This document shows positions 16,427 to 32,073 of a DNA stretch of 64,000 bases, piece by piece. The number at the start of each line of letters is the position of its first letter. Position 1 is the stretch's first letter. Source of the stretch: Iphinoe sp. HA4291-MV1 (GTDB lineage: Bacteria; Cyanobacteriota; Cyanobacteriia; Cyanobacteriales; Nostocaceae); the NCBI GenBank assembly GCA_019359415.1, contig JAHHHH010000012.1, positions 1 through 64,000 of the forward strand, written 5' to 3'. Position numbers and translations under genes: made by a program. A model generated the notes under the pieces. That model saw nothing but the letters and a program-made list of their open reading frames with translations. It was not told the origin of the DNA and searched no databases.

Positions 16427-16779
16427 CACTTTGGTAATTTACATGTTCCCCGTGACAATCATCCAGCTTTGGTATCTGACTTGATGGAGGAATTTCGCGC
16501 TCAAATTGTTGATTCGTTTGTCGGGTATTTGGTAAACAAGAAAATTTTAACTCCCGAAGATTTTACTCCTCCCGACGAACGTGGAGGTGTATACTTACAA
16601 GCAAGCGCACTGAAAAATATCTCAAGCACTGGGAGGAAAAGTTACAAACCGAGACGACGCATCCTCACACGGGTTACAAGGTTAGTTATCGTCGCTGCAT
16701 TGAGTTACAGGTGCGGGAGTATATTGCTTGTTTGATGGGTGAGGTGGAAGTGTATCGTCCGATGATTTGGAAAGTGTAA
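16427..16779 (+). pseudogene. cas1: cas1 C-terminal fragment, frameshifted
   Basis: Encodes the C-terminal third of a Cas1 integrase: FGNLHVPRDNHPALVSDLM, EEFRAQIVDSFVGYLVNKK and EDFTPPDERGGVYLQA. After a frameshift near 16605 it continues EKYLKHWEEKLQTETTH, YRRCIELQVREYIACLM and VEVYRPMIWKV, ending at 16779. The His and Asp of the active site (NHPALVSDLMEEFR) are visible, but the N-terminal two thirds, including the catalytic Glu, are absent. The 5' edge is the repeat at 16391-16419. The array 2 leader follows the stop directly, with no cas2. Non-functional. Confidence 0.85.
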
Positions 16780-16983: not shown

Positions 16984-17307
16984 CTTTAAACTTCTTCGGA
17001 AGTTGAATTAATGGAAACTGTCCGTTGACACGGAATGAAACTTTTTTACCCGATGGCTTTAAACTTCTTCGGAAGTTGAATTAATGGAAACCTGTGCTTT
17101 CTCTGCGACGAGATCTGACAACACCACTTTAAACTTCTTCGGAAGTTGAATTAATGGAAACTGGAATTTCCCCAACGGTTCTAAGGCATACCCGGCAATC
17201 CTTTAAACTTCTTCGGAAGTTGAATTAATGGAAACAGAAAGGCACTGCGAACCTCGTTGGGGCAAACCAACGCTCTAAACTTCTTCGGAAGTTGAATTAA
17301 TGGAAAC
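16984..17307 (+). CRISPR. CRISPR array 2 (5 repeats, 4 spacers)
   Basis: Repeats of 35 bases start at 16984, 17057, 17127, 17201 and 17273. The last has one change (CTCTAAAC for CTTTAAAC), as expected at the trailer end. Spacers are 38, 35, 39 and 37 bases. The repeat has a stem AACTTC-TTCG-GAAGTT and ends GAATTAATGGAAAC, so it is transcribed on the plus strand from the leader at 16780-16983. The small size and linked broken cas1 suggest it no longer acquires spacers by itself. Confidence 0.95.
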
Positions 17308-19355: not shown

Positions 19356-19760
19356 ATGTCCACAATCTACATCACCGAGCAAGATGCATCGCTCAAAATC
19401 CAACATCATTACTTAAAGGTGTTTCATCAACAAAAGCAATGCATCTGTATTCGGATTCGCAACGTCAGTCAAATCATCCTCTTTGGTAACATACATCTAC
19501 TAAAGGAAGTCATGAAAATCGTGCTTTCTCATCAAATTCCCGTCTTGTATTTAACCCCAGATGGCGAATTTTTAGGAAGGTTAGAGAACACATCACAACT
19601 AAAACGCAAATATCTAACCAACCAACGCCAACACACACGCGATGTTGAAGTGATACCTTCGGTAAGCGAACTTGTATTTCACCCCAAAATCGGGGTTGCC
19701 GCCAGGCAACACACACGCGATGTTGAAGCGATACCTTCGGTAAGCTTCGCTAACGCCTAG
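19356..19760 (+). pseudogene. cas1: cas1 N-terminal fragment
   Basis: A 134-codon frame whose first 96 residues are the beta-sheet N-terminal domain of Cas1: MSTIYITEQDASLKIQHHYL, ISQ-like NVSQIILFGNIHLLKEVM and IPVLYLTPDGEFLGRLENT. After QRQHTRD the frame enters a tandem repeat (CAACACACACGCGATGTTGAAG at about 19628 and 19708) and stops at 19760. The middle and C-terminal domain with the active site are missing. A C-terminal cas1 fragment lies 2.9 kb upstream at 16427-16779, also bounded by the same 29-base repeat. The two pieces together still lack roughly 115 central residues. Non-functional. Confidence 0.85.
19727..19755. repeat. 29-base repeat at the cas1 N-terminal breakpoint
   Basis: Identical to 16391-16419 and in the same orientation; it marks the point where cas1 homology is lost. 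It forms part of a local tandem repeat that also occupies about 19628-19668. Confidence 0.85.
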
Positions 19761-20052: not shown

Positions 20053-20740
20053 CTGTTAAACTTCCCCGGAAGTTGAATTAATGGAAACTATCCTAAAAGA
20101 AAGTCGCCGCAACACTGCTTGATCTGTTAAACTTCCCCGGAAGTTGAATTAATGGAAACTTAATTATTTCGTCGCGAGGCTCGCAACCCAGCAACTGTTA
20201 AACTTCCCCGGAAGTTGAATTAATGGAAACCTTTACATCTACAATATGAACTTTACCTGCGATACCCTGTTAAACTTCCCCGGAAGTTGAATTAATGGAA
20301 ACCTTCGGAAAAATTATCGCTTTATGCTACTCGGTACTGTTAAACTTCCCCGGAAGTTGAATTAATGGAAACGCTCCCAGCACTTTGCTGGTGTCGGCTC
20401 TATCGCGCTGTTAAACTTCCCCGGAAGTTGAATTAATGGAAACACAGCATGCCGCATCTCGGAAGCGCTCCAATTGCAAGCTGTTAAACTTCCCCGGAAG
20501 TTGAATTAATGGAAACTTACACAGCCTCCACCACGGCTACGCTGGGGAACAAGCGTGAACTGTTAAACTTCCCCGGAAGTTGAATTAATGGAAACCCTTC
20601 TCTTACTCCCTCATTTTGATTACCCGCACCCACTGTTAAACTTCCCCGGAAGTTGAATTAATGGAAACAAGAGAGGCAGCTTAATTGTTGCCTCTCTTTT
20701 TTAACTGTTAAACTTCCCCGGAAGTTGAATTAATGGAAAC
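20053..20740 (+). CRISPR. CRISPR array 3 (10 repeats, 9 spacers)
   Basis: Ten identical 36-base repeats start at 20053, 20124, 20195, 20267, 20337, 20408, 20481, 20560, 20633 and 20705. Spacers are 34-43 bases. The repeat begins CTGTTAAACTTCCCCGGAAG (stem) and ends GAATTAATGGAAAC, so transcription is on the plus strand from the leader at 19761-20052. The ninth spacer (20669-20704) is itself a perfect intrinsic terminator. The array is convergent with the Cmr/CHAT-SAVED operon, which ends 256 bases downstream, and is the array nearest the effector genes. Confidence 0.95.
20669..20704 (+). terminator. Terminator-like hairpin carried as a CRISPR spacer
   Basis: The last spacer of array 3 consists of a 10-bp stem (AAGAGAGGCA / TGCCTCTCTT), a 10-base loop and a T-run, spanning the whole spacer. 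In the predicted transcription direction it would end the pre-crRNA before the final repeat. Confidence 0.75.
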
Positions 20741-20996: not shown

Positions 20997-21722
20997 TTAA
21001 CAGGTAGAAAGTTTTAGTGAGGGTTGGTAATTTTTATCAGCAACAAACTCATAACAAACTACATCACCAATAACACGCGATCGCTGTCCTAAAAATAAAC
21101 AAAAACCAACAGGTGCAAATAAAATTAGGTGTATGCAAGTTGCACCATACTGTTGACGATACTGACGAATCAGGGCTTTCGCGTGAATAGCCAGTGCTAC
21201 AGCATCCGCATTGGAAGTAATTGCTTTATCTCCAACTCCCGACTCTGGTTCTACGTAGATCATCGAACTATATTTTACTGGTGAATCATTATACAAATCT
21301 TCTACGTATGTTGAGGCATCACCAGCAATAGCGAAAGCAAATAAAAGATGCTCTCCTACTTCACCTTGTTGCTTGGGGACTTTAAACTTAGCATCAGAAG
21401 CGGTGACATCAGAACGCCACAATTCGTCTTTTCCTTGAGTTCTTTGCTCAACTTGGAGAGTATATCCCTCGGTATCTTGGAATCTATAACCGATCGCAAA
21501 TGCCGCACTCAAAGGCAATCTACCCCTGATATCAACAGTCAATGCACTTTTTCCCTGAGTTAAATCGTTACGTGCTTTTTCTAGACTTGGAAGTAATATA
21601 TTATCCCAAGTTTCTTGGCTGGCAATCCGACGAGGTTTAGCCTTGATGTCAAAATGCTCTGTCCAGTCAAGTTCAAGCGTTGGTGTATTGCCATAATTTG
21701 CTTTAACCAACCATGTATCCAC
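20997..21722 (-). CDS. SAVED-domain protein (probable C-terminal half of a CHAT-SAVED effector)
   Basis: A 241-codon frame from a GTG at 21722. The C-terminal part is a SAVED domain: SSMIYVEPESGVGDKAI, ALAIHAKALIRQYRQQYG, CIHLILFAPVGFCLFLGQR and a closing YEFVADKNYQPSLKLS. SAVED domains bind cyclic oligonucleotides and act as sensors in CBASS and type III CRISPR effectors. There is no ribosome binding site before the GTG. Reading one base shift upstream fuses it to the CHAT ORF through LKKESRSQSSCKSVDTWLVK, and family members of the CHAT type normally end TPVLKK, so the two ORFs were probably one protein. It ends the Cmr operon, facing array 3. Confidence 0.8.
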   Translation of the reverse strand: MDTWLVKANYGNTPTLELDWTEHFDIKAKPRRIASQETWDNILLPSLEKARNDLTQGKSALTVDIRGRLPLSAAFAIGYRFQDTEGYTLQVEQRTQGKDELWRSDVTASDAKFKVPKQQGEVGEHLLFAFAIAGDASTYVEDLYNDSPVKYSSMIYVEPESGVGDKAITSNADAVALAIHAKALIRQYRQQYGATCIHLILFAPVGFCLFLGQRSRVIGDVVCYEFVADKNYQPSLKLSTC

Positions 21723-21757
21723 AGACTTGCAGGAAGATTGGGATCTGCTTTCTTTTT

Positions 21758-22330
21758 TTAAACCGGGGTATCTGCTTCCGGAATTCCAGCCAAGCGGATG
21801 CTGCTACAGCCATGCTTGTAAGCCAACTCATAATCCAACTCATAATCCTTAGCTGCACCAACTGCGTCGTAAAAACCAACAGCAAATTCGATCGCAGCGC
21901 GATCGCCAATTGGTTGATTCATGCCAATGACATAATCAATGTGCTGCTTAATTACTTCGGCTTGGATCTCTGCATAACAAGCGTTCAATACCACACATTT
22001 TACATGGTCTGTAAATAATTCAAACAATCCTGCTAATGCTTCCCCGTTGACTAACTGAACTTGACCGATTTCGTTTTCCAGCGCCAGTCCTTCTTCCCCA
22101 ACTCCATGACCAGAAAAATGGACGATTTCGGGAGTTTCTTCTAGAATAGCCCGTTGTAGCTCTCTGGGAGTAACAGCCCAGCGCTGGATTAATTCAAAGC
22201 GATCGCGTTTTTGAGCGCGTCGTAATGCTTTGTCAATTTCGCGCACTTCTTCGTCTAGACGCAACTTGCTGGTTAGCTTGGGGTTGGCGGTGAGGATAAG
22301 GATACGTTTTTTGGGATTTTTGCGAGTCAT
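21758..22330 (-). CDS. CHAT-domain caspase-like protease (N-terminal half of a CHAT-SAVED effector)
   Basis: A 190-residue frame from the ATG at 22330 (MTRKNPKKRILILTANP), 11 bases after the cmr6-cmr1 stop; an earlier in-frame ATG overlaps that gene. The catalytic dyad is intact: His75 in EIVHFSGHGVGEEG and Cys118 in CVVLNACYAEIQ. The IGMNQPIGDRAAIEFAVGFY segment is typical of CHAT. A 12-base tandem duplication (21823-21846) adds four residues (DYELDYELAYK). The frame stops at TPV in a GTTTAAAAAAAG tract; one extra base would read on into the SAVED ORF. CHAT-SAVED proteins in type III-B loci are cyclic-oligoadenylate-activated proteases, so this is the likely ancillary effector of the Cmr complex. 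Genuine mutation versus homopolymer sequencing error cannot be told. Confidence 0.85.
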   Translation of the reverse strand: MTRKNPKKRILILTANPKLTSKLRLDEEVREIDKALRRAQKRDRFELIQRWAVTPRELQRAILEETPEIVHFSGHGVGEEGLALENEIGQVQLVNGEALAGLFELFTDHVKCVVLNACYAEIQAEVIKQHIDYVIGMNQPIGDRAAIEFAVGFYDAVGAAKDYELDYELAYKHGCSSIRLAGIPEADTPV

Positions 22331-22341
22331 TGTAATTTTTT

Positions 22342-24192
22342 TTAATCTTGAATGGGGAAGATTTGAGCGTAGCAATCAAAATTATTTGGAGAATTTGTAA
22401 CTGAGTGCTTTATGGTGTTTAAATATTCTTTACGAGGGTCTTGATTTGCACCGAATACTGTAATAACTTGATATTTCTGTAAATTAGCGATCCAGATGGG
22501 AGAAGCTATTACATCACGGTCTATCTCATCACGCTTTTTTATAGATTCTTTTTTAATTCCTCCACATAAACTTTTTGCAGTTGTATAATTACTAGATTCT
22601 AAATTATGAAATTGGTTGTGTAAAACTTCGAGAGGATAAGGCTTATTTACAGGATTTGCATCTCTAGTAGCTTTACGAATTACTAAAATTTCACAATTAA
22701 TATCTACCGCTTCCAGCCAAGTATGTGCAGTCGCTGGGATAACATCTTGTAGTGGTTGACGATAATCAATATTTATTTGTGAGAATACACCTAAAGCCGA
22801 ATAAAATCTTTGTAATTGTTGTTGAAATAATATCTGAAACTCTTGAGGTGTTCGAGGTAATGTCCAATGATTTTGTAAAATATCAGGTTTAATTTCTTCG
22901 CGTTTTGGTATTAAATCTACTCCTCGACGTGCAGGATTTCCTTGACGTTTATAATAAGGTCGTCTTGCACCTTGTCCGACTCCACCTAAATGAAACATTA
23001 GCCAAGTTAAACTATTCAATAGCTTGGAAACTGAGCTTTTAAGTCTATCCTCTGTGAAAAGAGACTGACGCAGAATTAAAATACCATCTTGAAGGTTATC
23101 ATTTTGAGAGGTATTACCATTAATAACTTCTATTTGAAATAACCCATTTTTGGCTTTTGGTTCAATTCCACCAAATATAAATGTCTCTAACTCACGTACT
23201 TGCTTTTTTGGTAAAACACCCAAAGCAAATGCTCTAAACCAGTAGCGCAACATAGAGCGAAATGCTATTGGACGGACTTCCGCTACTGCTTGAGGTTTTG
23301 CTTCCCAGTTGTTTTCTTTTTCTTCCCAATTCCAATTAATTCGTTGATACCCATGAATTAATTGTCCTTGTAGTTCAAATGGAACTCGTAGAATAATCGT
23401 ACTTTTTTTGGGACGCTTTTCTGGTGGAAGAGAATTTAAATCTTTTCTTCCCAACTTTAATTCTCCATAACCACTATTGATGCGCGAACCAATTCCTTGA
23501 ACTAATCCTTTAAGTAACCATTGTTTTACTTTTTGTAGTGTATCATCATCACAATCTACACCCTTACGCAAGCCAATCACAAAATTTGGTTTTAATAAAG
23601 ATAAAAATACATTTGGATTAGGCTTATACTGTGGTTGATTATTTTTATCCCATGTCCAAATAGCATTCGCCATATCTGGTTTTAGTCCTCCCTGTTTATC
23701 TTCACCAGGAAGTGGGTAAGCATCCAAAAAGGTGACTATCCCCATGCTAGTTTCAGGGTTGATATCGCCGAATATTCTTCTAATTTCTTTTGCACATATC
23801 CCTTCGCGTTTTGCTACTGCTCTTGCAACACCTTTGAATGTGCTGCTAGGAATATAAGGCATACCTAAACTATCAAATGCTGGTAACAACATTGACTCTG
23901 GTGCTGTGCTTCCACCTACTCTAATTCGCCAAGGACATTCGACTACAAACCAGTCATGAGCTAATTTTTTTGTCCTGGCAGTGAGTTTTTCTAAGTTGAC
24001 AGAATAATCTCCCTTGTCGATACGTTGTAGCAGTTCCAACATTTTGGCACTATCGAGCGCATTCTGCGATTTATTTGGAGATTGTAACCGCATCCAGCGC
24101 AAATACTCAATAAAACTTGCATCGCTAGAAGGATTAGGTTCGCCAATTGAATTCAGCCAAGGTGAGGGAGGATTATTGTTACTATATACCAT
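22342..24192 (-). CDS. cmr6-cmr1: Fused type III-B RAMP protein, Cmr6-like plus Cmr1-like
   Basis: A 616-residue protein. The N-terminal part (about 1-255) resembles Cmr6: VECPWRIRVGGSTAPESML, LGMPYIPSSTFKGVARAVA, IFGDINPETSMGIVTFLDAY and the glycine-rich GLVQGIGSRINSGYGELKL. The C-terminal part (about 265-616) resembles Cmr1: AEVRPIAFRSMLRYWFRAFA, LETFIFGGIEPKA and SLTWLMFHLGGVGQGARRPY. Both are Cas7-type RRM proteins that cap the Cmr backbone next to the target RNA. Separate cmr1 and cmr6 genes are absent, which supports the fusion. It starts 17 bases after cmr5 and is followed 11 bases later by the CHAT ORF, all on the minus strand. Confidence 0.8.
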   Translation of the reverse strand: MVYSNNNPPSPWLNSIGEPNPSSDASFIEYLRWMRLQSPNKSQNALDSAKMLELLQRIDKGDYSVNLEKLTARTKKLAHDWFVVECPWRIRVGGSTAPESMLLPAFDSLGMPYIPSSTFKGVARAVAKREGICAKEIRRIFGDINPETSMGIVTFLDAYPLPGEDKQGGLKPDMANAIWTWDKNNQPQYKPNPNVFLSLLKPNFVIGLRKGVDCDDDTLQKVKQWLLKGLVQGIGSRINSGYGELKLGRKDLNSLPPEKRPKKSTIILRVPFELQGQLIHGYQRINWNWEEKENNWEAKPQAVAEVRPIAFRSMLRYWFRAFALGVLPKKQVRELETFIFGGIEPKAKNGLFQIEVINGNTSQNDNLQDGILILRQSLFTEDRLKSSVSKLLNSLTWLMFHLGGVGQGARRPYYKRQGNPARRGVDLIPKREEIKPDILQNHWTLPRTPQEFQILFQQQLQRFYSALGVFSQINIDYRQPLQDVIPATAHTWLEAVDINCEILVIRKATRDANPVNKPYPLEVLHNQFHNLESSNYTTAKSLCGGIKKESIKKRDEIDRDVIASPIWIANLQKYQVITVFGANQDPRKEYLNTIKHSVTNSPNNFDCYAQIFPIQD

Positions 24193-24209: not shown

Positions 24210-24638
24210 TCATGATTCAGGATTATTAGTTGGTTTTTCTTTAGGGTAAAGAGCTTCAGCCCAAAATGCAAATTCACGAGCAACTTGTAACGCAATTCCA
24301 GTTAATCCCAGATATGCTGATGAGCCTAGTTGTTGTTGACTGCTTAAATTTTGTAAGGCATTTGCACCACCAAGAAAATCAGTATTATCTGGATAAATTA
24401 ATTCACCTAATGTCTCAAAAAAACACTTGATGACGCTTTGCTTATTAGGCTTATTTTCTAAGGCATATTCTTCTGCTTTTAATCGCAACAATCCCCAAGT
24501 TGCAGCATAAGTATAAAGTTCTACAATCTGAGTTTTTTGCTCTTTCTGTGCATCTTTATCACCATTGACTGTTTGTTTAAGCTGACTAAGTTTTTCGTAC
24601 ACTTTAGCAGAAATACTTCGGGAATCATAAGTTAACAT
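24210..24638 (-). CDS. cmr5: Type III-B small subunit Cmr5
   Basis: A 142-residue, mostly alpha-helical protein, the usual size for Cmr5. Recognisable stretches are EKLSQLKQTV, LYTYAATWGLLRLKAEEYAL, LGGANALQNLSSQQ and the near-C-terminal LGLTGIALQVAREFAFWAEA. Cmr5 lines the backbone filament opposite Cmr4. Its start overlaps the end of cmr4 by 7 bases, indicating translational coupling. Assigned largely by position in the operon and helical composition. Confidence 0.8.
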   Translation of the reverse strand: MLTYDSRSISAKVYEKLSQLKQTVNGDKDAQKEQKTQIVELYTYAATWGLLRLKAEEYALENKPNKQSVIKCFFETLGELIYPDNTDFLGGANALQNLSSQQQLGSSAYLGLTGIALQVAREFAFWAEALYPKEKPTNNPES

Positions 24639-25483
24639 ATAGCTGCTTCCTCTTGATTGTTTTGAGTGTTCACCAATTGTTCTTCAGGATAATCTGTCCA
24701 GATTTCTACAAATCCTCTGCCTAAACTTTCTTGTCCGCCAATTTGTTTAATGTTATCTTCTAACAAACTTTGAAATCCATTACACGCTGTTTTCACTTCA
24801 TCATCTTTGAGAGTTGTAGTTGTTCCCCAAGGGAAAAACATTAAGGTTTCTGGAGGAATTGCTTCTTCATAGCGAAAAGCATCTGCTTCTTTTTTATCAT
24901 TTAAATTTACTCGCACTTGTCGCCATAAGCTAGACTCAATCAGTACTTTACAATCATGTTCAGATAAGACAAGTGCTTGTGAGATATTTTGAGTTTCTTC
25001 GCTACCTTGAGGAATATAATAACTCCACTCATCCCATTCTTTTAATTCATTAGATTTAAAAATAGTATCCCGCAAGTAGAGATTATCTGAATTTCCCCTG
25101 CTAAAACTTCCTACTTCTGGCAGGGTTAAATTATTATTAGTTAAACGTATCCAACGACGGAGTAAAAAGGGAGAAGTTACCCAAACAACACCGTGACTCA
25201 AGCTAGAGATGGGAAAATATAAAATTCCTGCATCTCCCACCCATAAAGCGCCCTGTGTAAGATTTTCTGCACTTCCAGATGTAATATCTTCAATTGTATT
25301 ACCCCAGAGAAATTTCTGGTTTTCCTTTGTGTCAGCCCGTAATCTACCGCGAATTGTACTGGAAGGTAAGTATGGTAAATCTGTATGCGATTCTTTGGCA
25401 ATACCAACTAAATTTCCTTCCTGACTTGTACCTCCTGTATGCAAAGGAGAAAGTAGATATAAATAAGCGTTAAACATTTTCAT
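24632..25483 (-). CDS. cmr4: Type III-B backbone subunit Cmr4 (Cas7)
   Basis: A 283-residue RAMP protein: the N-terminus FNAYLYLLSPLHTGGTSQEG and DLPYLPSSTIRGRLRADT are the RAMP strand and the glycine-loop region, and the C-terminal GGQESLGRGFVEIW is the family end motif. Cmr4 polymerises along the crRNA and in studied systems uses an Asp near residue 26 (VVDLP in Pyrococcus) to cut target RNA. At the equivalent place this protein reads GNLVGIAKESHTDLP, with no clear Asp, so target-cutting activity may be reduced or use another residue. Adjacent to cmr3 with no gap, and overlaps cmr5. Confidence 0.9.
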   Translation of the reverse strand: MKMFNAYLYLLSPLHTGGTSQEGNLVGIAKESHTDLPYLPSSTIRGRLRADTKENQKFLWGNTIEDITSGSAENLTQGALWVGDAGILYFPISSLSHGVVWVTSPFLLRRWIRLTNNNLTLPEVGSFSRGNSDNLYLRDTIFKSNELKEWDEWSYYIPQGSEETQNISQALVLSEHDCKVLIESSLWRQVRVNLNDKKEADAFRYEEAIPPETLMFFPWGTTTTLKDDEVKTACNGFQSLLEDNIKQIGGQESLGRGFVEIWTDYPEEQLVNTQNNQEEAAIC

Positions 25484-26632
<1,149 letters not shown>

Positions 26633-26753: not shown

Positions 26754-26781
26754 GTAGAGACGCGATGAATCGCGTCTCTAC
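26754..26781. repeat. Perfect palindromic repeat between cmr2 and cmr3
   Basis: GTAGAGACGCGAT followed by GA and the exact complement, 28 bases. This is a common cyanobacterial interspersed palindrome. The cmr2 stop codon (26778-26780) lies inside it, so insertion may have set the present C-terminus of Cmr2. Confidence 0.85.
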
Positions 26782-29700
26782 TTTTGCCTTATTTTTCTCC
26801 AGTTATAACGCTCTACTCGCTTATCGAGCCAAAAAGCAGTAAATCGCAGTAATTTTCCTAAATCTTCAGGCTGAGTACCCAAAGCATCAGAATCATCTTG
26901 ATACTTGTTCACCCAGTCTTCCCATGCATCCAACCATGCTGCAACTTGGGGAAACACATCTAACTGCTTGTTGCTATCCCGTCGCGTCATGATCACCTTG
27001 GCTGCTTGGGAAAATAATCTACTAGTTGGTGTCACACAAGCACGTTGGGGTAATTCTTCCGCCAAGCGATACAATAACGGACTCAGATCATCCCCATAAT
27101 TTTCATAGTCCTGCACCCAGTCCCACCATCTCTGCAATAATTCAGCTTTCATCAATGCTTCCAATTGGTTTCCACCTCCGTAGATGACTCGAAAGCAGAT
27201 ACCATCTTTACCAGGCATTTCTTTAGCTCGTTTTCCTTCAGCATCCCAGAGACTTTCTAGGACAGTAGGGAGGGGGACACTTTTGTGGGCAATCACTACA
27301 CCCATGCTGATGGTTGCACCTGCTCCCATCGTAAAATGGGGGCGTGGCGGTATTCCTTCTAAATCACCGCGAGGATGCCAGTAACCTGTAGTATGGGAAG
27401 AAGTGCGATCGCGTGAAGTGCTAAATTCGGGTTCTTTGTAAGGATCTTCTTCACCACACCATGCAGCACGCAGCGATAATATATATTCTGGCAAATCTTC
27501 CAGCGGCAGTACTGCCATGACATCATCACCACCACTATAAATCACTCGACCGCAGAATCGTTTTTCGGTTAAATAAGGTACGAGACGGTTAGAAAAATCA
27601 AGTAAAGCTCGGTTAAGTCCAACGTGGGTTGCTGGCCCCATCCGCTTTCGAGTATTGCGTAATGCTGCTAATTCTGGAATATTGTTTGCATCTGCGATCG
27701 CTGAATCAACAAAATATTTGTTATATGGATGTAATTTCTCTCCAGAAATATAGCTACCCATCCCATCCCCATCAGCCAGGACTATTACCCACCAATCTGC
27801 GGGACTACCATTAACAAAACCAGTAGCGCGATGTGCTTGCTCAACTAAATCTCTGAGAGTATTGAGTTCTTCTTTTTCCAATCCCATATCATCCGCAAGC
27901 CATTTGCTGGAGAACATCACACCGTTGTAGTTGCGTCCCTGGCGATTTTTGGGATTAATAGTTTTATCTGTTTTTGGTACATGGGAAGAACGAAATCGAG
28001 TCAGAAACTCAAAAAATCTCCGATGTTTTGGAAGATGATTTTTGATTTCTTGGTTGAGATGCTCCCAATATTTACGAGTTAATTCGTAGTTATCGCTAAC
28101 AAATCTGGCTGATGCAATAGAACTTAAATTTGGGAAGCGCAAAAGTCGTTCGTAAATAATTTGATTTCGTTTAATAATTTTGACTTGATTGCTTTCATCT
28201 GCTTTCAAGAACTTAATTTGCTTAATAATTTTTTCCACATCAATGCCAAAACTTTCGGCAACACCTCCATAAACCCACGCCATTCTCTTAGTTACCTCCA
28301 ACGCATTCAATCTTTCAGAACCGTTGAATAAACCTGGATAAGCCTCAGACATAATTAACCAAAATAACCGCATCGAACCTGCTGATACACCACCCCCCTC
28401 TTGAAATTTTGCGTAGTTGAATAAGGGATGTAATGCAGTAAATTGACCAGAAATAGTTGAACGTTCTCCAGGTGCAGATGGTATTTGCCAATTGCGGGTA
28501 TTCTTCACAGATTGCAGAGCTAACCGCAAGCGTTGTTGCAAACTTCCCCACCACGTACCAACATTCAGCGATTCATATAATAGTACTTCTGCTGGTGCTG
28601 GTAATTCATCTGGTGGTTCAGTAATATTATTTAAATCCTTTATCCATTTTTGATTAAATAAATCGTTAATTTTAAGAATACTTAAATCATTACCAGGTAT
28701 TCCCAAGGGAACTGCAGTCCAATAGGGTTCCCAACTATGATTTAATTGTGCTTCCCAAAGACTTTTCCACTCCCAACAGCCGTGTTTATTTTCATCTTTA
28801 AGCTTGCGTATTTCATCACGATAAGGTTCTAAAAGATTTTGGCTATCTTCAGATGCAAATAACTCAGGAAATGCTGCTTTTAACAGTTCATCTTCATTTG
28901 TCTCTGGCTGGTTGAGAAATTTTACAATCTCCTGTCTAATATGCTTTCTAACTTTTTCTCCTATACTTACCCACTCTTCGGTAATTTTTTCTGACAGTTT
29001 CTTTCCCCATTCATTCGCCGCTTCTTTCCCTGGAACCAAAACCGTAATCACGTTAGGAAAACCAGCAGTACTCAAGCTAGTTGATGTTTTCTCGTTAAAC
29101 CGACTTACCGGATTTTTACCATTCTCAAAACGCTCAAAATCAACAGCAAACTCTGGATATTCTTTAAGCATCAACGCATCAAAAACTTCCTGACTCCATA
29201 GAGATGGTACGATTACAGCATCAGGGCCGAGTTCTGTCGCAACTTCCCAGCACAATTTGACGCTGAGATAGTGTAGCAAATAGGAACCAGACCAAAAATC
29301 TAAAAACTTCCGCGAAGCCTTAATAAACTCCTGCACTGGGGAAAAGGAGAATATTAATAAATAAGGTGTTTCAGGCTTTGATGAATCACCAGAATCGGGA
29401 AACATTGCACCAGATAACGCAGACACCGTACTTTGGTAGCTATGCAACGGACAATCTGGAATCACTTTATATGCTGGATACAGCAACGCATCCGGTTGCT
29501 GAGTTTGTAGCACCTCCGGATAAAATCGCCAAAACCACCAAAATACCTTTTTTTCATCAGTTTCACTAGTAATCCAGTCAAGAATATCAGCTATGCTGTT
29601 GTTGACATTCCTCTCATCAATTTGTTGCTCCTGTCCGCTAATGGGATGCTTGACAGTGATTTTTGGCTGTTGAGTGGGATTCTCCGACAGGTTTATACAG

Positions 29701-29894
29701 TCAGAGGAAGCAGCGATTTGTTCTGCAATGTTGTCTGGTTGAGTGTTGCTCCCGTTTTGTCCCCACCATTGGCTGAGTTCTGTTTTATCTGACTTAAGAC
29801 ATGACAGGTGGTGTAAAATATTTTGCTGTTGATTTGGTAGGATGGGCGATCGCAGTAGTGCGTATAACTTACGGTGGTAAAGACTAATTTTCAT
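26778..29894 (-). CDS. cmr2: Type III-B Cas10 subunit Cmr2 with intact GGDD cyclase motif
   Basis: A 1038-residue Cas10 protein, first gene of the operon. The Palm1 region has FSPVQEFIKASRKFLDFWSG (about residue 185-205). The second palm domain has VLADGDGMGSYISGEK (metal-binding Asp) and IYSGGDDVMAVL with GGDD at residues 788-791, so cyclic oligoadenylate synthesis is predicted. GAGATISMGVVIAHKSVPL is another GGDEF-like block. I see no HD nuclease motif at the N-terminus (KISLYHRKLYALLRSP), so DNA cleavage by this subunit is unlikely. No cas6 is present nearby, so crRNA processing must be provided from elsewhere. Confidence 0.95.
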   Translation of the reverse strand: MKISLYHRKLYALLRSPILPNQQQNILHHLSCLKSDKTELSQWWGQNGSNTQPDNIAEQIAASSDCINLSENPTQQPKITVKHPISGQEQQIDERNVNNSIADILDWITSETDEKKVFWWFWRFYPEVLQTQQPDALLYPAYKVIPDCPLHSYQSTVSALSGAMFPDSGDSSKPETPYLLIFSFSPVQEFIKASRKFLDFWSGSYLLHYLSVKLCWEVATELGPDAVIVPSLWSQEVFDALMLKEYPEFAVDFERFENGKNPVSRFNEKTSTSLSTAGFPNVITVLVPGKEAANEWGKKLSEKITEEWVSIGEKVRKHIRQEIVKFLNQPETNEDELLKAAFPELFASEDSQNLLEPYRDEIRKLKDENKHGCWEWKSLWEAQLNHSWEPYWTAVPLGIPGNDLSILKINDLFNQKWIKDLNNITEPPDELPAPAEVLLYESLNVGTWWGSLQQRLRLALQSVKNTRNWQIPSAPGERSTISGQFTALHPLFNYAKFQEGGGVSAGSMRLFWLIMSEAYPGLFNGSERLNALEVTKRMAWVYGGVAESFGIDVEKIIKQIKFLKADESNQVKIIKRNQIIYERLLRFPNLSSIASARFVSDNYELTRKYWEHLNQEIKNHLPKHRRFFEFLTRFRSSHVPKTDKTINPKNRQGRNYNGVMFSSKWLADDMGLEKEELNTLRDLVEQAHRATGFVNGSPADWWVIVLADGDGMGSYISGEKLHPYNKYFVDSAIADANNIPELAALRNTRKRMGPATHVGLNRALLDFSNRLVPYLTEKRFCGRVIYSGGDDVMAVLPLEDLPEYILSLRAAWCGEEDPYKEPEFSTSRDRTSSHTTGYWHPRGDLEGIPPRPHFTMGAGATISMGVVIAHKSVPLPTVLESLWDAEGKRAKEMPGKDGICFRVIYGGGNQLEALMKAELLQRWWDWVQDYENYGDDLSPLLYRLAEELPQRACVTPTSRLFSQAAKVIMTRRDSNKQLDVFPQVAAWLDAWEDWVNKYQDDSDALGTQPEDLGKLLRFTAFWLDKRVERYNWRKIRQK

Positions 29895-30883: not shown

Positions 30884-31744
30884 TTATTGCTTCCAAGCAT
30901 GAGCAACATAAGCGGAATCTACCACAACTCCCATCAAATTTACAGGTGTATTAGCAGAAGCATAGTATTTAACTTTTTGTGATAGTTCATCGATCGCATT
31001 GATTCTTTGTTTCCCAGGACGAATATAAACAACAAGAACAGCTTGAGGAGGAAGCCTATTAATAATTTTGTTGAGTTGTTCAGCGACTCTTGTTTCAAGA
31101 GGTGGAGCAATTTCTCTCTCTGAAAGTTTATTTTTTTCTTCATCTTCCACTAATGTGTAGTTTACTAAATCTAAAACGATAACATCTCCCAAAAATTTGA
31201 CTTTTTTAGACGCGTCTAAAGGACGAGTTGCTTTAAATCCCCTTGTTGCTAATAATTGATACTCTTCGGGATAATCTTCAGGTAAGACAGGCTGCTGCCA
31301 AGGTAGAAAGTAATCTACATTAATTCCACCAATCACCTTTTCACGGTCTAAAACTGTCTTTAAGTTGCTAACTTCATCTCCTACCGCTTCATCTACCACT
31401 GCTTGTAGTCTTCTTTCTACTTCATTCCTAATCAATTGTCTTGCTTCTTTGAGACTTTGATTAAATAGATAAACACTGATAGCTCCGGCAACTCCCAGAA
31501 TAATACCTAACACAATAAATGAAAGATTAATTGCACTTACAAAAGTCCCAAAACTATTATTAAGGCGTGTGTGGGCATCTTGTAAAAACTGAATTTGACT
31601 TTTTAGTAACTCAACCTCAACTGATGGAGATGGAGACACATAAGGTTTAGGAATTGGGCTTGCTGTAGGAGATGGCGTACTCTGAGCAATCAAAAACATC
31701 CCAACTTTGAATAACCACATTTGAGATACATTTAATAAATGCAA
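30884..31744 (-). CDS. Membrane-anchored protein of unknown function
   Basis: 286 residues. An N-terminal hydrophobic segment (WLFKVGMFLIAQ), a Pro/Ser-rich stretch (STPSPTASPIPKPYVSPSPS), a short coiled coil and a strong membrane helix (LSFIVLGIILGVAGAISVYL, about residues 72-92) are followed by a charged helix (EARQLIRNEVERRLQAVVDE). The C-terminal globular domain contains VIVLDLVNYTLVEDE, VLVVYIRPGKQRIN and NLMGVVVDSAYVAHAW. I do not recognise the domain. It is convergent with the toxin remnants and is probably monocistronic. Confidence 0.6.
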   Translation of the reverse strand: MHLLNVSQMWLFKVGMFLIAQSTPSPTASPIPKPYVSPSPSVEVELLKSQIQFLQDAHTRLNNSFGTFVSAINLSFIVLGIILGVAGAISVYLFNQSLKEARQLIRNEVERRLQAVVDEAVGDEVSNLKTVLDREKVIGGINVDYFLPWQQPVLPEDYPEEYQLLATRGFKATRPLDASKKVKFLGDVIVLDLVNYTLVEDEEKNKLSEREIAPPLETRVAEQLNKIINRLPPQAVLVVYIRPGKQRINAIDELSQKVKYYASANTPVNLMGVVVDSAYVAHAWKQ

Positions 31745-32073
31745 CTAATACATATTAACGGGGATTGGGGACTAAATAAGTCGGCACGATCAAACCAATG
31801 TATGTTGAGTTTTGTAAAAGCTGTGGAATTTTGACTCATTTCTAAGCTGCTTGCTGATTTTACATTTTGTTACATAGGTTGATTTTTTAACATCGACTTA
31901 CTTAGTACCGTTACCGAGTCAGTCAAAAGCATGCCCTTGAGCCGAACGCGAGTGCGTGTCCTTTGGACATAGCTGCGAGGCGTCCCTTGCGCGTTTCAAA
32001 ACGCAAGCACGAGTCTCTATACCATCCGCTCCACTGTGTTGTTAACCTGCTGGTCGACAAGGGAAGTTGCCGT
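31745..32073. other. Intergenic region with a GC-rich repeat
   Basis: No gene. A short interspersed repeat (about 31938-32015, GCGCGTTTCAAAACGC palindrome included) lies in otherwise AT-rich sequence. Confidence 0.55.

Follow-up and report, generated by a model that had tools for sequence, protein, structure and literature searches.

We analysed a window of 64,000 nucleotides (the whole stretch of DNA under study, contig C21) from the draft genome of Iphinoe sp. HA4291-MV1, which comprises 7.36 Mb in 140 contigs and is 95% complete. A type III-B operon runs leftward in the order cas10/cmr2, cmr3, cmr4, cmr5, a cmr6-cmr1 fusion; behind it come a CHAT ORF and SAVED, and then a CRISPR array. On the minus strand, cas10/cmr2 (26778–29894), cmr3 (25484–26617), cmr4 (24632–25483) and the fused RAMP gene cmr6-cmr1 (22342–24192) were assigned by profiles and tblastn, and cmr5 occupies 24210–24638. 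Cas10 lacks the HD dipeptide throughout and keeps its GGDD motif, as the initial annotation had observed; this motif and the presence of cmr2 to cmr6 identify a type III-B CRISPR locus. The array (20053–20740, plus strand) was found by a repeat search and holds 10 exact 36-bp repeats. Five further matches to the 17-base 3′ part of the repeat lie at 17002–17307 on the plus strand, with the main array some 3 kb away. Profile matches place cas1 on the plus strand in two displaced pieces, an N-terminal fragment at 19356–19760 (also delimited as 19356–19691) and a C-terminal fragment at 16612–16773. The first fragment ends in a repeated RQHTRDVE.IPSVS stretch. Beyond cas10, a minus-strand gene at 30884–31744 encodes a Cam2-like protein (PADLOC C3a55/Mem_02).

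The CHAT half is an ORF of 190 codons (21758–22330, minus strand), supported by Pfam (CHAT, E 1e-10) and by its relatives. It contains His75 and Cys118, which we take to be the CHAT His-Cys dyad, and it terminates with TPV and a TAA (21758–21760) within GTTTAAAAAAAG, exactly as first described. The SAVED half (20997–21698, minus strand; Pfam SAVED E 2e-28, and relatives) carries neither an internal stop nor a frameshift. It lies in the -1 frame relative to CHAT, where the nearest upstream stop is a TAG at 21806. No ATG precedes the SAVED domain, and the sole candidate starts are GTG at 21722 and TTG at 21710. The -1 frame and the missing ATG had both been pointed out before, together with the lack of a ribosome binding site. 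The latter holds true by eye but is not diagnostic: intact relatives show no Shine-Dalgarno-like stretch at their own CHAT ATGs either, and we dropped it as evidence of breakage.

The two ORFs had been proposed to be one Cmr-linked effector that was broken, a proposal that would fall if homologues were consistently encoded as two ORFs. Comparison with homologues bore the proposal out and makes the pair, at the 3′ end of the operon, the halves of what was ancestrally a single ORF, since all seven distinct relatives encode a fused protein in a single ORF of 434–444 amino acids and none is split. Full-length matches were found in seven genomes besides the genome of origin, among 218 genomes of the family, each as one stop-free ORF; G524 and L002 carry the same sequence and were counted once, with seven distinct relatives in all. 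Their CHAT halves are 57–68% identical to that of the window. In five of the seven (L046–L050) the gene sits directly behind cmr6-1; in L052, cmr6-1 is about 3.5 kb off on the opposite strand, and around the L051 gene we found no match to the window cmr genes within the 20 kb examined. A search of a phylum sample of 386 genomes at E ≤ 1e-100 returned three matches: the window copy itself, a TIR-SAVED protein (G579) and Nostoc sp. TCL26-01 (G274). The Nostoc copy (WP_179051909.1, annotated as 'SAVED domain-containing protein') lies on plasmid pTCL26-01_B, which is typed as mobilizable. In each of seven congeners the best match (E 5e-66 to 7e-69) was confined to CHAT positions. Weaker SAVED matches share 23–27% identity and have open frames of 451–524 amino acids, with one of 224 amino acids at a contig end (L008). 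Viral contigs gave 56 pattern matches and no relatives. The structure of a full-length relative, predicted from 7 rows, had a mean pLDDT of 53.8 and was left unused.

How the window copy was broken can be read from its alignment with these relatives. When the seven proteins were compared with the window by tblastn, a CHAT-frame segment crossed the TAA in every case and ran on to 21701–21695, followed by a SAVED-frame segment. For four of the seven (L002 with its duplicate L017, L020, L021 and L022) the SAVED-frame segment reaches back to 21767, because the frame is open there. The 20 codons behind the stop (21698–21757, minus strand, KKKADPNLPASLWIHGWLKQ) resemble the linkers of the relatives when read in the CHAT frame, with scores of 50–71 that none of 2000 shuffles equalled for any of the seven. 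Read in the SAVED frame, the same span scores only 13–22, and 310–1729 of 2000 shuffles do as well. The family HMM likewise covers 21698–22327 at its positions 2–208 with one TAA within, at a position where all seven distinct relatives have a leucine codon, directly followed in six of them by two or three lysines. The frame change itself lies about 60 nt downstream of the TAA, near 21,698, and tblastn locates it to 21690–21705 (minus strand), where WLKQ in the CHAT frame gives way to NYGNTP in the SAVED frame. Given that the CHAT frame continues to match past the TAA and the SAVED frame there does not, we distinguish the nonsense codon from a second, separate lesion, the -1 change. On this comparative reading at least two distinct mutations disrupt the CHAT-SAVED gene, and a single missing base is ruled out. 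The initial annotation had blamed a single base, and the join that it proposed, one added base at the TPV stop, is possible on paper because the SAVED frame is by chance free of stops back beyond the TAA; nonetheless, it would leave 20 codons that match nothing in that frame. An exact 12-bp tandem duplication in the CHAT part, first noted there, was confirmed (21824–21835 and 21836–21847, minus strand). It is in frame, adds four residues and is absent from all seven relatives, and by this comparison it is a third change private to the window copy.

The geometry of the lesions also bears on whether a fused protein could still be made by programmed frameshifting or transcriptional slippage. An A7 run does adjoin the stop, and slippage on this homopolymer had been suggested as a source of two products. 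However, the TAA is 5′ of the run, so that gain or loss of an A leaves the stop in place, and with the frame change about 60 nt downstream a fused product would require readthrough of the stop as well as a second shift. No in-phase X XXY YYZ site was seen by eye, and none of the seven relatives uses two frames, so that a conserved two-frame layout is absent. We therefore regard recoding of any kind as extremely improbable. Slippage on the A7 run and a single homopolymer error were both rejected, since the stop precedes the run and homology to the relatives carries on in the CHAT frame beyond this stop.

A sequencing or assembly error deserves more attention, considering that the genome is a draft in 140 contigs and that the second lesion adjoins a short A run. 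The single-base error envisaged earlier fails, because a single miscalled base cannot account for the nonsense codon and, at another place, the frame change; two unlike errors within about 60 nt would be required, plus the 12-bp duplication. As a control of the reading frame, proteins of relatives were aligned to the window by tblastn (13 alignments; cmr5 was left out). The genes cas10, cmr3, cmr4, cmr6-1 (24054–22408 only) and the Cam2-like gene each stayed in a single frame over about 7.5 kb aligned. Four of the 13 alignments contained one stop (that of L049 cmr4 and those of three Cam2-like queries), in all cases upstream of the listed start codons, and no stop fell within the listed ORFs. 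The chance that two random lesions over these genes would both hit CHAT-SAVED is about 2%. Two unlike lesions, next to some 7.5 kb of neighbouring genes without a frameshift or internal stop, make an error very unlikely.

The two halves are otherwise well preserved. Departures from invariant columns number 4 of 66 in the CHAT part, compared to 1–8 of 63–70 for intact copies, and 5 of 80 in the SAVED part, compared to 2–9 of 77–84 (the duplicate L017 was removed beforehand); in the relaxed-selection test for dating the loss, the window copy fell inside the spread shown by intact ones. Loss of the effector looks recent, since no additional stop or frameshift has arisen in either half and the share of conserved residues retained lies within that of intact copies. 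The same openness and conservation would also fit continued selection on two separate proteins, which speaks against a pseudogene. So does the GTG at 21720–21722 (minus strand), the earliest possible start in the SAVED frame, which lies between both lesions and would yield a whole SAVED domain. A 190-residue CHAT protein and a separately started SAVED protein might then join upon cyclic nucleotide synthesis; reinitiation some 36 nt beyond the stop is one way in which the latter could be started. The absence of a Shine-Dalgarno stretch is no obstacle, as intact relatives show none by eye at their own ATG. Against this stand the seven undivided relatives, the loss of the linker between protease and sensor, and the first eight codons from the GTG (VDTWLVKA), which lie in the span that is unmatched to relatives in the SAVED frame; moreover, recent decay explains the same conservation. 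We consider a split but working effector unlikely. Quite unlikely, too, is the specific scenario in which the mutations themselves did the splitting, giving two chains that assemble only with cyclic oligoadenylate and that derive recently from a fusion with reversed domain order.

Our preferred explanation is that the window very probably holds an inactivated type III-B effector, a pseudogene for a fusion of a caspase-like CHAT protease, at the N-terminus, with a SAVED cyclic-nucleotide sensor at the C-terminus. By analogy with characterised SAVED-CHAT, the Cmr complex of the intact relatives would recognise target RNA, upon which Cas10, through its GGDD motif, would make cyclic oligoadenylate. 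The SAVED domain would bind this messenger and assemble, and CHAT would then be switched on and cleave a protein. In the window copy, the nonsense codon ends the protein after CHAT and the separate frame change severs SAVED from it. As the sequence shows, normal translation cannot yield the complete effector in this genome. Nor was a SAVED sensor found that could act in trans, as the only Pfam-SAVED match in the draft genome (95% complete) is the window copy. Because the cmr genes are intact, the Cmr complex is probably still able to act and to signal.

With CHAT-SAVED lost, the Cam2-like protein may serve as the effector that is left. According to PMC11229360, Cam2 is a REC-domain membrane protein that is proposed to be activated by cA3 and is found beside SAVED-CHAT in two loci. 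The product of 30884–31744 has N-terminal helices followed by a REC-like C-terminal domain in a model of moderate quality; it fits the Cam2 description weakly, the likeness being one of description and model. Related genes, also identified by PADLOC (C3a55/Mem_02), occur at L046:13480-14385, L048:5985-6884, L051:5503-6348, L052:13584-14441 and L053:9341-10090. They lie at most 0.3 kb from CHAT-SAVED in four of the seven relatives, and about 1.9 kb from a TIR-SAVED gene in L053. Members of the family occur in 7 of 8 genomes with CHAT-SAVED and in 18 of 210 others (Fisher p 8e-7, uncorrected for kinship), which makes the CHAT-SAVED/Cam2-like pair worth testing. Just upstream of the TTG start of the window gene, at 31744–31753 (minus strand), the sequence reads ATG-TAT-TAG, and relatives read on from the ATG; this is possibly a further nonsense codon that the TTG bypasses. 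As to other effectors or signal sources, a Csm6-HEPN search gave no match in the genome, and none in its controls either. A Cas10-palm model gave further matches on C127 and C69, with C100 below the cut-off. Since the model also matched 5 of 14 controls, including E. coli, these are only candidates.

Taken together, the locus is partly decayed, with cas1 in pieces, the Cmr genes intact and a probable second effector that is Cam2-like. Decay is also seen in other genomes. In G384 (L014/L058, G384:C136:133431-133523) a SAVED relic of 31 codons, interrupted by a TAG, shares 71% identity with the SAVED of the window, and no match to the window cmr genes was found within the 17 kb examined around it. 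In Nostoc sp. TCL26-01, an ISKra4 family transposase gene lies inside cas10 on pTCL26-01_B (L068:272-4743), and the operon's CHAT-SAVED gene is intact. The cas1 pieces, the G384 relic and this insertion are single cases and give no rate. The effector family is unusual; its copy in the window is an ordinary case of gene decay. This copy serves mainly as an example of a CRISPR system whose sensor genes are still intact although an effector has been lost, and the intact relatives are of greater importance.

The closest characterised system is SAVED-CHAT (PDB 8tl0), which PMC11229360 describes as a cA3-binding type III-B effector that acts via a proteolytic cascade; the survey given there counts it as rare, with three loci. 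The window family shares with it a SAVED sensor, the linkage to type III and a CHAT domain with a His-Cys dyad, which aligns with that of 8tl0 including the GHG and NAC motifs (E 1.5e-13). A single polypeptide is encoded in all seven relatives but not in the window, where the TAA and the -1 frame change break the copy. The order of domains is different: in 8tl0, CHAT occupies residues 287–471 of 496, which leaves no room for SAVED behind it, whereas the window family has CHAT first and SAVED last. Indeed, the PADLOC SAVED_CHAT model matched through its CHAT part (positions 285–440 or 287–443 of 498), and SAVED_PDDEXK matched the SAVED half of the window (E 1.5e-70) and the SAVED part of all seven relatives. 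The literature covered, outside which most subscription papers fell, contained no report of CHAT-SAVED, nor of SAVED-CHAT in cyanobacteria. The protein of Nostoc sp. TCL26-01 (WP_179051909.1) sits in the same place behind cmr6-1 and is 68% identical in CHAT and 61% in SAVED; there the effector is intact but cas10 is interrupted. CBASS effectors of the Cap4 type and TIR-SAVED (found also in L053 by Pfam and in L003 by eye) likewise have the effector domain in front of SAVED, which comes last, and the SAVED at the C-terminus of Cap4 structures aligns; unlike them, the family has CHAT instead of a nuclease or TIR and is linked to a Cmr operon. With the family profile, the Cap4 structures 7yia and 6vm6 were matched through their SAVED domain, and 8tl0 through CHAT only. 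Judged by domain order, the CHAT-SAVED family is a variant that reverses the solved SAVED-CHAT, and a protease activated by cyclic nucleotides seems to have been assembled separately here, from CHAT and a Cap4-like SAVED placed behind it.
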